NCBI RefSeq assembly: GCF_030655665.1 | Contig: NZ_JAUSPQ010000005.1 | Coordinates: 1-64,000 of the forward strand | Source: Methanocorpusculum sp. | GTDB lineage: Archaea > Halobacteriota > Methanomicrobia > Methanomicrobiales > Methanocorpusculaceae | Reading direction: 5' to 3' | Length of the DNA stretch: 64,000 nucleotides | Shown: positions 20,594-30,511 of the stretch, in pieces | Position numbering within the stretch: the first letter of the stretch is position 1 | Layout: every line of letters starts with the position of its first letter | Made by a program: the position numbers and the translations under genes | The notes under the pieces: generated by a model | Told to the model about the DNA's origin: nothing | What the model saw: only the letters and a program-made list of their open reading frames with translations | The model's database searches: none

Positions 20594-21436
20594 TCACAAA
20601 TACCCAATTCCCGTCAGGGAAGAGAAGATCCACAGAATAACGAATATCACCGGGATGTGGACAAGATAAATGAAAAGCGTTACCGCACCATTCCCGATCT
20701 TTGCAATAACCTCCCCGACCATTCCCGGCTCACGGATGGTAAAACCCCGTTTGCCTCCCGGATAAAAGACATTCCCCAGACCAACACCCAGAAGAAGCAC
20801 ACCAAACCAGGGGAACAAGGGGAAGTAATCCTGCGTATACATCATGAAATCCTCGGCATGGATCCCCAGAGGATAGAGCCAGGACGGATCATTGATGTAC
20901 GGGAAAATAAACGCTCCGATCGCGATGATGATCATCCCGAGAATAATATTCCATTTTCCATATCTCAGAAGAGGGATCGCAAGAAGCATGGACACCCCTA
21001 GCATATGCAGGAAGCCGAATTTAATAAATGCATCACTGCCGAGGAACACCGAAGCACCGATCCAGCTTCCGATCGTAATACAGAAACCGAGCGCCAGTAA
21101 AAACAGTGCCTTGATAACCAGAGCTCCGTAGTATTCCTTCGTAGTTCTTCCCCGCATTCGTTCGTGACGGAGGATCATCGCAATACCGGCAATAAGAACA
21201 AAAATTCCCGAACCAAGCATATAGGTATTATAATAGGAAAGGAACTTGGCATCCTCCACGATTATATGGAATGCGACGAGACATGCAAGAAAATGATAAA
21301 ACAGCATCCCGAGAATAGCAAGTCCGCGGACAGCGTCGATTTCCCAGTACCGCTCGCTTTGCGGAGCACCCGGCTCACCAATTCCCCGGACCGTTGTCCC
21401 GTTTACCTCCATTTCACCACCCATTCTTCCAGTCAT
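20594..21436 (-). CDS. DUF1624 / HGSNAT-type membrane acyltransferase, copy 1
   Basis: A 280-residue polytopic protein with about eight predicted membrane segments. The diagnostic start is RYWEIDAVRGLAILGMLFYHFL after a polar leader. YPLGIHAEDFMMYTQDYFPLFPWFG in the second half matches the heparan-alpha-glucosaminide N-acetyltransferase-like catalytic domain (pfam07786, DUF1624). Family members are thought to move acyl groups across membranes onto sugars; the substrate here is unknown. It is the last of three tandem paralogues and overlaps dtdA slightly. Confidence 0.82.
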   Translation of the reverse strand: MTGRMGGEMEVNGTTVRGIGEPGAPQSERYWEIDAVRGLAILGMLFYHFLACLVAFHIIVEDAKFLSYYNTYMLGSGIFVLIAGIAMILRHERMRGRTTKEYYGALVIKALFLLALGFCITIGSWIGASVFLGSDAFIKFGFLHMLGVSMLLAIPLLRYGKWNIILGMIIIAIGAFIFPYINDPSWLYPLGIHAEDFMMYTQDYFPLFPWFGVLLLGVGLGNVFYPGGKRGFTIREPGMVGEVIAKIGNGAVTLFIYLVHIPVIFVILWIFSSLTGIGYL

Positions 21437-21470
21437 ATTGGTTGTGTATATCTAAGTAATTTCTGCACAG

Positions 21471-22301
21471 CTAAACATACCCGATCCCGGTTGTCACGCT
21501 TAACACCCACAAAATGACAAAGAAGATCGGCATGTGGACAAGATAGATGATGAGCGTGGTCCTGCCGTATCCCATCTTCGCAAAGAATTTGCCGAGAAAA
21601 CCTGGCTGTTTCACCGAGAATGATCTGACGCCTTTCGGATAGAAGATGTTGCCGAGACCTATCCCCAGCAGAATGAACCCGGACCACGGAAAGAGCGGGA
21701 AGTAGTCAGGCGTATGGTCCATGAAATCGGCACCGTGGATCCCGAGCGGATAGAGCCAGCCGGGACCCTGGAGACCCGGGATGATGAACACTCCGATAAG
21801 GATGATCAGTATGCCAAAAAGGATGTTCCATTTCCCAAACCTGAGAAACGGGATCGAGATGAGCATCGAAATACTCAGCATGTGGAGGAACCCGAACTTG
21901 ATGAAGACATCATCGCTATAGATAACAACGGAGGCAAGCCAGGTCAGTGCCGTGATACCCATGGCAATACAAAACAGAAACATGGCTTTTTTCGCGATAT
22001 CACAGTAGTACGAACCCATAGGCTTTCCAAGCATACGGTTATACCGGAGAACGAGTGCCACGCCGGCAATGAAAATGAAGGCAGCCGAGACGATCACGAT
22101 CGGACTGTAATAAAACAGAAACTCGCGAGTCTCCTGCAGGATGTGGAACATCACGAGAATGGCGAGAAAATGAAAATACAGCATTCCGAAAAGAGCAAGA
22201 CCCCGGATTGCGTCGATTTCCCAGTAACGCTCACTTTTTTTTGCTAACGGGGGAGATCCCGGAGTTACGCACTGCTCTTCGCCGCTCATTGTTTCAGGCA
22301 T
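21471..22301 (-). CDS. DUF1624 / HGSNAT-type membrane acyltransferase, copy 2
   Basis: A 276-residue paralogue of the neighbouring genes, with the same opening (RYWEIDAIRGLALFGMLYFHFL) and middle motif (YPLGIHGADFMDHTPDYFPLFPW). By eye it is much closer to copy 1 than to copy 3, which suggests a recent duplication of these two. About eight membrane segments are predicted. The gap to copy 1 is 34 bases, so the genes are probably co-transcribed. Confidence 0.82.
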   Translation of the reverse strand: MPETMSGEEQCVTPGSPPLAKKSERYWEIDAIRGLALFGMLYFHFLAILVMFHILQETREFLFYYSPIVIVSAAFIFIAGVALVLRYNRMLGKPMGSYYCDIAKKAMFLFCIAMGITALTWLASVVIYSDDVFIKFGFLHMLSISMLISIPFLRFGKWNILFGILIILIGVFIIPGLQGPGWLYPLGIHGADFMDHTPDYFPLFPWSGFILLGIGLGNIFYPKGVRSFSVKQPGFLGKFFAKMGYGRTTLIIYLVHMPIFFVILWVLSVTTGIGYV

Positions 22302-22340
22302 GTATGCGTTCGGCAGGGAAGTAATTTACCCGAATCGTTT

Positions 22341-23135
22341 TCAGATATAACCGATCGGAAAGCCGCATAATCCGGAAAGTACGACGATGATAAAAAGGAT
22401 CGTGCCTATCAACGGGATGTGAATAAGATATATTTGGAGAGGATACTTGCCGATAAGTGCAAGAACCTGACTGATTTTTCCCGCGGAACGGAGATGATAT
22501 CTGCGGATCCCGTTTGGATACAGAAGAGCGCCGAGAAAGACCCCAAAAAGCATAACGCCGACCCAGGGAAAGACGGGGAAGAAGTCACGCGGATAATAAT
22601 CCGGCGGCAGGATCCCGAAAACCATCAGCCAGGCAGGTCCTTTGATCGTTTCGAGAAAGAGACCGAGCAGGAAGAACAATACTGCGGGGATCAGACTCCA
22701 TTTCCCGAACCGTAAAAACGGGATGCACAGTATCATGGATAGACCCATCATCTGCAGGAAGTTGAAGTACACGTATCTTCCGTCGTTGATGAACACGAGA
22801 ACCAACAGAGATGCGACGATGGATACCCCAAGCCCGATCAGCATGATCTCTATCCCGCGTTTTAGAATGGCCAGGTAGTAGGTCCGACGCGGTTTGTCGA
22901 GCATCCGGCCATGACGAAGGATCAGGGAGGTTCCCGATATGATGACGAATACGCTCGTCCCGAGAGGCAGGTAGATGCCAAGCCGCAGCCAGACATCCAC
23001 ATTGATGATGTGAAAGACGCCGAGAAGAAAAACGGTGTGGAAAAGTATCATCGCGAGAAGCGAGAAACCGCGTATTGCATCGATCTCCCAGTACCGTTCC
23101 TTCACCGGGGCGGGACAGACGTCATCCATGTGCAT
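22341..23135 (-). CDS. DUF1624 / HGSNAT-type membrane acyltransferase, copy 3
   Basis: A 264-residue member of the same family and the most divergent of the three: RYWEIDAIRGFSLLAMILFHTVF at the start, FGILPPDYYPRDFFPVFPW in the middle. It lacks the longer polar leader of the others. It is first of the trio in transcription order, 39 bases before copy 2, and starts 70 bases downstream of the cofG stop. Its substrate is unknown; surface glycan or lipid decoration is a reasonable guess. Confidence 0.8.
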   Translation of the reverse strand: MHMDDVCPAPVKERYWEIDAIRGFSLLAMILFHTVFLLGVFHIINVDVWLRLGIYLPLGTSVFVIISGTSLILRHGRMLDKPRRTYYLAILKRGIEIMLIGLGVSIVASLLVLVFINDGRYVYFNFLQMMGLSMILCIPFLRFGKWSLIPAVLFFLLGLFLETIKGPAWLMVFGILPPDYYPRDFFPVFPWVGVMLFGVFLGALLYPNGIRRYHLRSAGKISQVLALIGKYPLQIYLIHIPLIGTILFIIVVLSGLCGFPIGYI

Positions 23136-27463: not shown

Positions 27464-27518
27464 AATATGTTAATAATGTTTTACATTCAACCAAGTATAA
27501 ACGAGGTGACAAGAAGAA

Positions 27519-28205
27519 GTGAAACCACGAAAGTTCAGGCACGAATTAAAATATTACCTGAATACAGCAGACTATTTGATCATCAAAAACCGTCTGTCCG
27601 CCATTGCGGGACCGGATGAACACACTGACGCAAACGGATCATACAGGATCCGGAGTCTGTATTTTGAAACACCGGACGACAAAGCACTCCTTGAAAAACT
27701 CTATGGAGTAAATGAGCGGGAGAAGTTTCGAATCAGGTATTACAATAACGATACCTCATTCATCCACTTAGAGAAGAAGACCAAAATAAACAACCTCACG
27801 AACAAAATTGCCGCAAGCGTCACAAAAGACGAGTGCGAAAAACTCATAGCAGGCGATACGGAATGGATGAGAGAGTCGAAAAACGGACTCCTTCTCGAAC
27901 TGTATGCAAAGATGAAGTATGAACTTCTCCGCCCGAAAACGCTTGTCGACTATATGAGAGAGCCGTTTGTCTACCGCCCCGGAAATGTGCGGGTAACCTT
28001 CGACACGAAGATCTCAACCGGCGTGAACTCGACCGATATGTTCAACGCCAAGACCCCCATGATCAAAACCCACGGGGAACCGGTCATTATAATGGAAGTA
28101 AAATATGACAATTATCTCCCCGAAATTATCAGAAGTATGGTACAGGTACAGAACAGAAGGGTCACTGCCTTCTCAAAATATGCAGTCGCACGCGTCTTTG
28201 GGTGA
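27519..28205 (+). CDS. VTC-domain protein, polyphosphate polymerase-like
   Basis: A 228-residue protein starting at GTG with a GAGGTGA site 9 bases upstream. The VTC tunnel-domain pattern is clear: FRHELKYYLN, YRIRSLYFETPDD, KFRIRYYN, HLEKKTK and a late VIMEVKYD. Basic and acidic residues lining this fold bind NTP and polyphosphate in yeast Vtc4. The archaeal protein could be a soluble polyphosphate polymerase or a triphosphate-tunnel enzyme; activity is inferred. It begins a three-gene operon with DUF4956 and CotH genes. Confidence 0.88.
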   Translation: MKPRKFRHELKYYLNTADYLIIKNRLSAIAGPDEHTDANGSYRIRSLYFETPDDKALLEKLYGVNEREKFRIRYYNNDTSFIHLEKKTKINNLTNKIAASVTKDECEKLIAGDTEWMRESKNGLLLELYAKMKYELLRPKTLVDYMREPFVYRPGNVRVTFDTKISTGVNSTDMFNAKTPMIKTHGEPVIIMEVKYDNYLPEIIRSMVQVQNRRVTAFSKYAVARVFG

Positions 28206-28209
28206 GTAA

Positions 28210-28887
28210 ATGGCACTGACCTTTGACGATATATTATCCTCGGATTTTCTTTCGACGGTGACTGAGTTTTCCTTGACGGACATGCTTATCGCGATGGTGC
28301 TCGCGTTCGCGCTCGGTCTGTTTATCCTCTTTATCTACAAAAAGACGTTCAACGGCGTGATGTATTCATCCGGATTCGGGATATCGCTTGTTGCCATGTC
28401 GCTTGTGACGACGATGATCATTCTTGCGATCGGATCGAACGTTATCCTGTCTCTTGGTATGGTCGGCGCCTTGTCGATCGTGAGGTTCAGATCGGCAGTG
28501 AAAGATCCGATGGATATTGCCTATTTGTTCTGGGCGATCTCGGCCGGTATCGTTCTCGGTGCAGGGTTGATCCCGCTCGCGATCTTCGGCTCGGTGTTTA
28601 TCGGAGCGGTTTTGTACATCTTCTCGGCAAAGAAGCCGACGGACAAACCCTACATCCTGATCGTGGACTGTGCCGATGAAAACGCGGAGGCAAGCGTCAA
28701 CGCTCTTATGAAGAGAACGGTGAAAAAGTCCCTCCTGAAATCAAAAACCGTTACAAAGACCGGGATGGAACTCACGATCGAGGTCCGCCTCCCGGATCAG
28801 GAGAGCGGTTTCGTGAACAAGATCTCGGATCTTGCAGGCGTCTCGAATGCCGTTTTAGTGAGCTATAACGGGGAATACATGACGTAA
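28210..28887 (+). CDS. DUF4956 membrane protein
   Basis: A 225-residue protein with three to four membrane segments in the N-terminal half and the family signature SLGMVGALSIVRFRSAVKDP near residue 80, followed by a soluble C-terminal domain (ILIVDCADENAEASVNALMKR). DUF4956 genes usually occur next to VTC and CotH genes, as here; gaps are 4 and 1 bases. It may form the membrane part of the system. Confidence 0.87.
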   Translation: MALTFDDILSSDFLSTVTEFSLTDMLIAMVLAFALGLFILFIYKKTFNGVMYSSGFGISLVAMSLVTTMIILAIGSNVILSLGMVGALSIVRFRSAVKDPMDIAYLFWAISAGIVLGAGLIPLAIFGSVFIGAVLYIFSAKKPTDKPYILIVDCADENAEASVNALMKRTVKKSLLKSKTVTKTGMELTIEVRLPDQESGFVNKISDLAGVSNAVLVSYNGEYMT

Positions 28888-28888
28888 G

Positions 28889-30511
28889 ATGAAGCATATC
28901 AATACCATCACTATTTTTCTGATCGTTGGTGCGATACTTTTCACCTGCATGCTTATGTTTAATCCAACGGCTCTCGGGATAACGACAAAGGATACCCTCT
29001 ATGAGAGCACCCTTTTCGATAAAAACGGGATCACGACGGTCAATATCACGATCAGCGATGAGAACTGGGCGGACATGCTGGAAAATCCCCTTGAGGAGGA
29101 GTTCCATCTCTGCGATATCACGATCAACGGCGAGACGTACGATTCGATCGCGATCCGAACAAAAGGCATGACGAGTCTGTCGTCCGTTGCAAACAGCGAT
29201 TCGGACCGATACAGTTTCAAAATAAAAGCCGATGAATATGTAGGCGGTCAGAGTTTCGACGGGCTGGATGAGTTCGTGCTGAACAATATCTATCAGGATG
29301 CGACCTACATGAAGGAGTATCTCTCGTATGAGATGATGGATTACATCGGCGTCGATACGCCGCTGTATTCGTACGCGGCGGTCTATATCAACGGGGAGTA
29401 TTTCGGTCTGTATCTGATGGTCGAGGCACTGGAGGAGGATTTCCTTGACAGAGTGTACGGAGCGGATTACGGTGAACTGTACAAGCCGGAATCGACGTCA
29501 GGCGAGATGGGGGACCGGACGACCGACGGAGAGGGAGAGGGAGACCAAATGCCGGGAGGGAATATGACCCAGATGGATTTCGGCAACCGTACGATGCCCG
29601 ACGTCAATATGACGGACATGATGGGTCAGATGGGCGGAGGCGGGTTTGGCGGCATGTCCGGCAGCGGCGGAGGAGCGGATCTGGTCTATACGGATGATGA
29701 GATAGACAGTTATAGTCAGATCTTTGATAATGCGGTGACTGATGCGAAGAAGTCGGATGAAAAACGGGTAATAACTGCGCTGAAGAATCTGAATGAAGGT
29801 ACGGATCTGGAGACGTATGTGGATGTCGATGAGGTGCTGAGGTACTTTGCGGCGAATACGGCTCTGGTGAATCTGGATAGTTATGTGAGTTCGATGAAGC
29901 ACAATTACTATCTGTATGAGGAGGACGGTCAGATTTCGATCCTGCCGTGGGATTTCAATCTGGCATTCGGCGCCTACGGGACCAGCGGCGCAAGTGATGC
30001 GGTGAATTTCCCGATCGATACGCCGGTGGCGAGCGGGGTTTCTCTTGAGGATCGGCCGCTGATCGGCGTTCTGCTGGAGAACGAGGAGTATACGGAGCTC
30101 TATCACGCGTATCTGGAAAAGATCGCGACCGAGTTCTACGGGGATTCGTTCGATGAGCGGATCGCGGCAATCGATGCACTGATCGGTGATTACGTGGAGA
30201 CCGATCCGACGGCGTTCTATACGTATGATGAGTATCAGACGGTGATCGTGACGCTGGCGGAGTACGGGGATCTGAGGGCAGAGAGTATTCTTGGTCAGCT
30301 GAATGGAACGATCCCGTCGACCGAGGAGGGGCAGACGGAGAATCCGGATCTCCTGGTGGATGTGTCTGGTCTGAACTTTTCCGCGATGGGATCTATGAGC
30401 GGGGGCGAGGGCGGCGGCATGGGCGGAGGTGATAGAAACACTATGGATTTCGAGAATATGACGATTCCTGAAGGAATGACTGTGCCGGAGGATATACAGA
30501 TACCCGCGTGA
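28889..30511 (+). CDS. CotH-family secreted protein kinase
   Basis: A 540-residue protein with one N-terminal membrane or signal segment. The kinase-like CotH fold shows in GETYDSIAIRTKGMTSL, YAAVYINGEYFGLYLMVEAL and ILPWDFNLAFG (the DxN catalytic region). A Met/Gly/Asp-rich low-complexity insert lies at about residues 205-265 and a similar tail at 505-540. CotH proteins in Bacillus phosphorylate spore-coat proteins; here an extracellular or surface target is likely. It ends the VTC-DUF4956-CotH operon. Confidence 0.87.
   Translation: MKHINTITIFLIVGAILFTCMLMFNPTALGITTKDTLYESTLFDKNGITTVNITISDENWADMLENPLEEEFHLCDITINGETYDSIAIRTKGMTSLSSVANSDSDRYSFKIKADEYVGGQSFDGLDEFVLNNIYQDATYMKEYLSYEMMDYIGVDTPLYSYAAVYINGEYFGLYLMVEALEEDFLDRVYGADYGELYKPESTSGEMGDRTTDGEGEGDQMPGGNMTQMDFGNRTMPDVNMTDMMGQMGGGGFGGMSGSGGGADLVYTDDEIDSYSQIFDNAVTDAKKSDEKRVITALKNLNEGTDLETYVDVDEVLRYFAANTALVNLDSYVSSMKHNYYLYEEDGQISILPWDFNLAFGAYGTSGASDAVNFPIDTPVASGVSLEDRPLIGVLLENEEYTELYHAYLEKIATEFYGDSFDERIAAIDALIGDYVETDPTAFYTYDEYQTVIVTLAEYGDLRAESILGQLNGTIPSTEEGQTENPDLLVDVSGLNFSAMGSMSGGEGGGMGGGDRNTMDFENMTIPEGMTVPEDIQIPA

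Follow-up and report, generated by a model that had tools for sequence, protein, structure and literature searches.

The window, a 64,000-nucleotide stretch of a Methanocorpusculum genome, carries on its plus strand three co-directional open reading frames (positions 27519-28205, 28210-28887 and 28889-30511) that encode a VTC-domain protein, a DUF4956 membrane protein and a CotH-family kinase-like protein, respectively. The Pfam matches of all three products exceed the curated cut-offs. The VTC gene has a GTG start, 5' of which a Shine-Dalgarno-like GAGGTGA can be read directly at positions 27503-27509 (+ strand), and its 228 aa product, predicted to be a polyphosphate polymerase of the cytosol with the triphosphate-tunnel fold, matches PF09359 (E = 1.6e-40) over profile positions 1-230 of 235. 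It is followed by the gene for the 225 aa DUF4956 protein (PF16316, E = 3.9e-10), the predicted membrane partner or translocator of VTC, and by that for the 540 aa CotH-family protein (PF08757, E = 4.7e-63), which is predicted to be membrane-anchored and extracytoplasmic. The intergenic gaps measure 4 bases and 1 base, respectively; the ORF coordinates and Pfam matches thus confirm a sequence-only reading of this DNA that had placed the three genes within 4 bases of each other. Across ten relatives the gaps inside the unit range from -1 to 65 bases, and dN/dS values of 0.06-0.16 for VTC, DUF4956 and CotH indicate purifying selection on all three genes. Elsewhere in the window, three paralogous membrane proteins (264-280 aa) that form one similarity cluster are encoded in tandem on the minus strand at positions 20595-23135.

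Residues 1-38 of the CotH protein (28889-29002, + strand) form an N-terminal anchor module, composed of a transmembrane (TM) helix and an F-x-P-x-x-LG motif, that is common to Cthe_2159 proteins. The protein matches the Bacillus CotH structure 5jd9 with an E value of 5.6e-11. Within its CotH domain (29153-30286, + strand), residues D330 (29876-29878) and D355 (29951-29953) are invariant in 23 sequences and align with the catalytic and metal-binding aspartates, respectively; their spacing of about 23 resembles that of D228 and D251 in the B. subtilis protein, the latter of which we take to be the metal-binding residue. D228 is the catalytic aspartate of the B. subtilis enzyme (PMC7821199). The two Met/Gly-rich regions that the sequence-only reading had assigned to CotH are real: one is an insert with N-x-T sequons inside the CotH domain (~aa 203-263; 29495-29677, + strand), and the other forms the C-terminal tail (aa 496-540; 30374-30508, + strand). 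Tandem repeats within these segments vary between species, as seen in the CotH genes of loci L030, L032 and L035, which suggests fast length variation of an N-x-T-rich surface region. An apparent frameshift in the CotH gene of L034 was rejected, as the break is a stretch of N filling a scaffold gap.

The three genes are inherited as a block. Among the 33 genomes of the archaeal family, 11 contain the full triad and 21 contain none of the three genes, while in G018 (L040) the sole trace of the unit is a 74-residue VTC remnant. The gene order is identical in all 11 triad genomes and the flanks vary among species; by flank comparison, the block is held together in at least five genomic contexts. 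In G031 (L039:7268-8632, minus strand) the VTC gene is frameshifted and the DUF4956 gene contains a stop, whereas the CotH frame is open, indicating that VTC and DUF4956 decay together there. A phylum-wide survey of 391 archaeal genomes, each at least 90% complete, located VTC in 38 and DUF4956 in 38, with 37 genomes in common and one remnant of each, so that the two genes occur in a ratio of nearly 1:1. CotH is present in 30 of the 391, most of which (23) also have VTC: it occurs in 23 of the 38 genomes with VTC versus 7 of the 353 without it (Fisher 2.9e-21, a statistic that ignores phylogeny), and it adjoins VTC-DUF4956 in 20 of the 23 genomes that have both CotH and VTC. The order VTC-DUF4956-CotH is used by Methanocorpusculum and by M. 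acetivorans-like genomes, and CotH-VTC-DUF4956 by other Methanomicrobiales; the same partners in two orders argue against the mere inheritance of a chance arrangement. One genome (G142:C1:1667692-1670237) has a second DUF4956-CotH locus with a VTC remnant containing stops, as well as an intact VTC-DUF4956 pair elsewhere. The proposal of the sequence-only reading that the three genes constitute one system, for which it had suggested a phylogenetic co-occurrence check, is therefore well supported by their co-inheritance, their fixed order and the anchor described below.

The VTC protein resembles the yeast polymerase Vtc4 in both fold and active site. Searches of the PDB with the single protein or with a ten-sequence VTC alignment returned nothing relevant, and it took a 16-sequence profile to reach yeast Vtc4 (E = 9e-16). 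In this alignment, numbered along the full-length chain 8i6v_E, Vtc4 residues K200, R264, R266, K281, K294, R361 and R373 correspond to K11, R71, R73, K87, K96, R147 and R158, while a short and weak second segment at the C-terminus pairs E426 with E193 and K458 with K220. We take K200, K281, K294, R361, R373 and K458 to have active-site roles, as judged from the Vtc4 structure. A catalytic role is documented for R264, R266 and E426 (PMC9911596). The present protein has all nine mapped residues, which are kept throughout the 28 prokaryotic VTCs compared; the active-site residues whose absence the sequence-only reading had named as a refutation are thus in place. For the AlphaFold2 model (pLDDT 89.7), the best PDB match found by Foldseek is yeast Vtc4 (3g3r, E = 5.1e-13, TM 0.70), and the CYTH phosphatases and hydrolases rank below it (most at about 7e-8; E. 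coli YgiF at 1.9e-10). The prokaryotic proteins contain R-x-E-x-K in place of the R-x-T-x-K of Vtc4; this is one step towards the CYTH hydrolase motif and counts against the polymerase reading. Polyphosphate assays of prokaryotic VTCs were not found in the literature searched. Almost all of the genomes contain PPK1, with or without the VTC-DUF4956 unit, so storage polyphosphate of the ordinary kind does not depend on the unit, and the presence of PPK1 rules out VTC as the cell's only polyphosphate synthase.

The model of the DUF4956 protein, which is of moderate quality (pLDDT 76.9), has about five TM helices followed by a C-terminal MgtC/ACT-like domain. This domain weakly matches the fold of the MgtC C-terminal domain (2lqj, E = 1.9e-3) and looks regulatory, and at the sequence level the protein reaches 38.9 of the 214 bits of the NCBIfam MgtC/SapB model, far under its cut-off; no channel-like match was found among solved structures. 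All 52 sequences compared have R92 and R94, and K98 is almost invariant. These three residues would lie at the cytosolic mouth, where a nascent polyphosphate chain would arrive, provided that the C-terminal domain faces the cytosol as it does in MgtC.

The third position of the unit is not reserved for CotH. In several methanogens that have VTC-DUF4956 and lack CotH, a Cthe_2159 protein adjoins the pair instead. Of the 80 loci in the genome collection that lie closest to this one, which come almost exclusively from gut or rumen Clostridia and over-represent the closest relatives, 36 are VTC-DUF4956-CotH and 37 are VTC-DUF4956-Cthe_2159, such that 73 of 80 have one or the other; five have VTC-DUF4956 without a recognised third gene and in two VTC alone was seen. 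The 67 third products scanned with Pfam comprise 35 Cthe_2159 and 32 CotH proteins, with no exceptions. Among the 33 archaeal-family genomes, clear Cthe_2159 proteins (E < 1e-20) occur in 5 of the 11 triad carriers versus 0 of the 22 others. On a tree built by a quick method from concatenated VTC and DUF4956 and rooted with three distant archaeal rows, the head type switches between 10 and 13 times; counting well-supported branches only, at least 5 to 6 swaps are required. Because the Methanocorpusculum copies form a clade (support 98) nested within the clostridial ones on this tree, the simplest reading is that the unit came to Methanocorpusculum from Clostridia; a phage origin was rejected, as there are no PHROG matches. 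The repeated exchange of CotH and Cthe_2159 in the third slot is new as far as the literature was searched, and no open-access full text was found that links VTC-DUF4956 with Cthe_2159 or describes their shared anchor. In a comparison of fungi, 40 Pfam domains were confined to anaerobic gut fungi; CotH and Cthe_2159 are two of them, and Cthe_2159 came from Clostridiales (PMC6712302); the fungal genes and the clostridial units possibly draw on the same rumen gene pool. Genes for an OmpR-type response regulator and a histidine kinase adjoin many clostridial units (L113, L114, L117, L139, L172 and others), and a GGDEF-EAL gene lies 3' of one unit in Acetobacterium (L113); such regulators may reveal what the unit responds to.

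The CotH and Cthe_2159 proteins of the third slot start with the same ~38-residue segment, in which a basic K-x-I-D-x-I-C start and a single TM helix are followed by L-F-M-N-G-E-x-L-G-I. With a profile made from the CotH anchors, 36 of 37 Cthe_2159 N-termini outscore every one of 163 other hydrophobic N-termini (Cthe_2159 median 58 bits, background at most 10.1), and the reverse profile, made from Cthe_2159 anchors, places 31 of 36 CotH N-termini above all background. Across proteins with different heads, anchor identity tracks VTC+DUF4956 identity (rho 0.81, 0/2000 permutations), indicating that head exchange leaves the operon's anchor in place; such coevolution is also expected of co-inherited neighbours, which counts against our preferred explanation. 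Met/Gly-rich segments are found in 39 of 74 third products (16/37 CotH, 23/37 Cthe_2159) versus 3 of 235 other ORFs, and both kinds often end in a TM helix followed by a basic tail. In genomes without VTC, neither the anchor (0/6) nor a Met/Gly-rich segment (0/6) is present in stand-alone CotH proteins, a form seen in one genus of the same order (L065-L069 and L071). In the Methanocorpusculum genome studied here, just two proteins carry the anchor, CotH and a Cthe_2159 protein encoded at an unlinked site; the profile used for the genome-wide search included the latter, and the independent CotH profile also ranks its anchor above all background. This second gene (G000:C7:162154-163530; L198:6840-8789, minus strand) lies in a 660-residue open frame; its product combines an anchor of the CotH type with a Met/Gly/Thr-rich insert and is probably a second effector that uses the VTC-DUF4956 module.

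The three genes are linked and conserved, and the heads of the third product are exchanged behind a shared anchor. We propose, giving the idea an even chance of being right, that they form one membrane module that combines synthesis by VTC, passage through DUF4956 and an anchored surface effector. As its fold and active site suggest, VTC would polymerize polyphosphate from ATP at the cytosolic face. DUF4956 would act as its membrane partner and carry the polymer, as it grows, to or across the membrane, much as the TM region does in the eukaryotic VTC complex; yeast has a positive belt that guides the chain out of the VTC tunnel and into the membrane (PMC9911596). The third product would be held at the outer face by its N-terminal anchor, through which it may contact VTC-DUF4956, and the anchor would carry an interchangeable head, the CotH kinase here and the Cthe_2159 β-helix in about half of the relatives. 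The effectors would work on the surface polymer or together with it: CotH may phosphorylate proteins of the surface or the Met/Gly/Thr-rich segments of CotH itself, and Cthe_2159 may bind the polyanion. That heads are swapped behind a constant anchor suggests DUF4956 as the site of docking, and the anchor provides a sequence tag for finding more effectors. The five loci with VTC-DUF4956 but no recognised third gene, and the DUF4956 model with its regulatory-looking C-terminal domain and no channel-like match, count against the proposal.

The main rival explanation is that the module regulates the production or assembly of a surface polymer, as in Pel loci, and is no polyphosphate exporter; DUF4956 would be a sensor, CotH would phosphorylate a synthase or matrix protein, and VTC would have a minor or signalling role. 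The triad cotH-PPP-DUF4956 is already known to accompany Gram-positive pel operons as accessory genes (PMC7112168), and in Streptococcus intermedius the same three families (SIR_1592-1594) have been deleted individually: loss of DUF4956 raises Pel and loss of CotH lowers it, whereas deletion of VTC (SIR_1593) has no reported effect on aggregation or Pel (PMC12345266). These genetics are the strongest counter-evidence to the polyphosphate-export model, and a regulatory role also agrees with the MgtC/ACT-like C-terminus of DUF4956 and with the two-component and GGDEF-EAL genes beside clostridial units. However, PelG, the Pel marker searched, is absent from the 33 archaeal-family genomes and from 36 clostridial carriers, no recurrent polysaccharide-synthase cluster was seen within 6 kb, and VTC, with its mapped catalytic residues all kept under purifying selection, is the most faithful companion of DUF4956. 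We consider this explanation unlikely, and the absence of PelG led us to reject a Pel accessory role in Methanocorpusculum. The authors of the 2025 study did not find the triad arrangement outside Pel loci (PMC12345266); contrary to that study, the unit is independent of the Pel polysaccharide as judged by PelG, a result that is new as far as the literature was searched and that corrects the published statement that this gene order is confined to Pel loci.

A stronger form of the membrane-module proposal is that CotH takes its phosphate from the exported polyphosphate, which would solve the lack of ATP outside the cell. It draws on the linkage of a candidate polymerase-exporter to an anchored extracytoplasmic kinase with conserved aspartates, and on the ATP source of CotH, which has been stated as an unanswered question (PMC7821199). 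The idea is improbable, as CotH uses ATP in vitro (PMC7821199), a non-kinase fills the slot equally often and the S. intermedius VTC mutant kept its phenotype (PMC12345266). About as improbably, VTC could be a tripolyphosphate/polyphosphate hydrolase or another triphosphate-tunnel enzyme, with the unit degrading or sensing polyphosphate. The superfamily consists mostly of hydrolases and R-x-E-x-K supplies one of the two CYTH glutamates, but the Foldseek match to Vtc4 lies far above those to most CYTH hydrolases and all nine mapped polymerase residues are conserved; we doubt that the enzyme is a hydrolase. Finally, that the genes adjoin by chance or through general clustering of surface genes is refuted by the co-occurrence data and has a negligible probability: functionally unrelated genes can sit 1 to 4 bases apart, but one gene order is shared by 11 of 11 Methanocorpusculum triads, whose flanks differ, by M. 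acetivorans-like genomes and by 36 of the 80 nearest loci, other Methanomicrobiales use CotH-VTC-DUF4956, and the anchor is held in common.

In its fullest form, which we put forward as a long shot, the membrane-module proposal would make VTC-DUF4956 a prokaryotic polyphosphate synthase-exporter with a docking slot, into which effectors with exchangeable heads plug via their TM anchor; a CotH head would carry out polyphosphate-powered extracellular phosphorylation, and a Cthe_2159 head would bind the polymer into the surface matrix. Where CotH obtains its phosphate donor has yet to be answered (PMC7821199), and few studies address how prokaryotes might bring polyphosphate to the surface; both questions become testable with a small unit of three genes that occurs in culturable methanogens and clostridia.

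The unit resembles several known systems in part. With the eukaryotic VTC complex it shares the tunnel fold and the mapped catalytic residues, and here too the polymerase is encoded beside a membrane protein; it differs in consisting of a 228 aa VTC domain only, without SPX or a Vtc1-type TM domain, and in having R-x-E-x-K, an unrelated membrane partner (DUF4956) and an extra extracytoplasmic effector. The Bacillus CotH spore-coat kinases have the same CotH domain with both catalytic aspartates, whereas the protein described here is membrane-anchored, bears a Met/Gly-rich insert and tail, and is encoded in an operon with VTC-DUF4956 in a non-sporulating archaeon. Cthe_2159 (PF14262), a carbohydrate-binding β-helix, occupies the same operon slot in relatives, but its sequence relation to CotH is limited to the anchor and the low-complexity segments, and the folds are unrelated. 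In C. perfringens NELoc-2 (PMC2879425), a VTC gene and a gene for a DUF4956-sized membrane protein likewise precede CotH, but there both genes ahead of CotH occur twice, and the annotation of the membrane protein, which we infer to be DUF4956, is tubulin/FtsZ. The Gram-positive pel accessory cluster also has contiguous cotH, VTC and DUF4956 families; in contrast to it, the unit described here resides in an archaeal host, without adjacent pelDEADAFG or a neighbouring DUF4832 gene, and its CotH slot is interchangeable with Cthe_2159.
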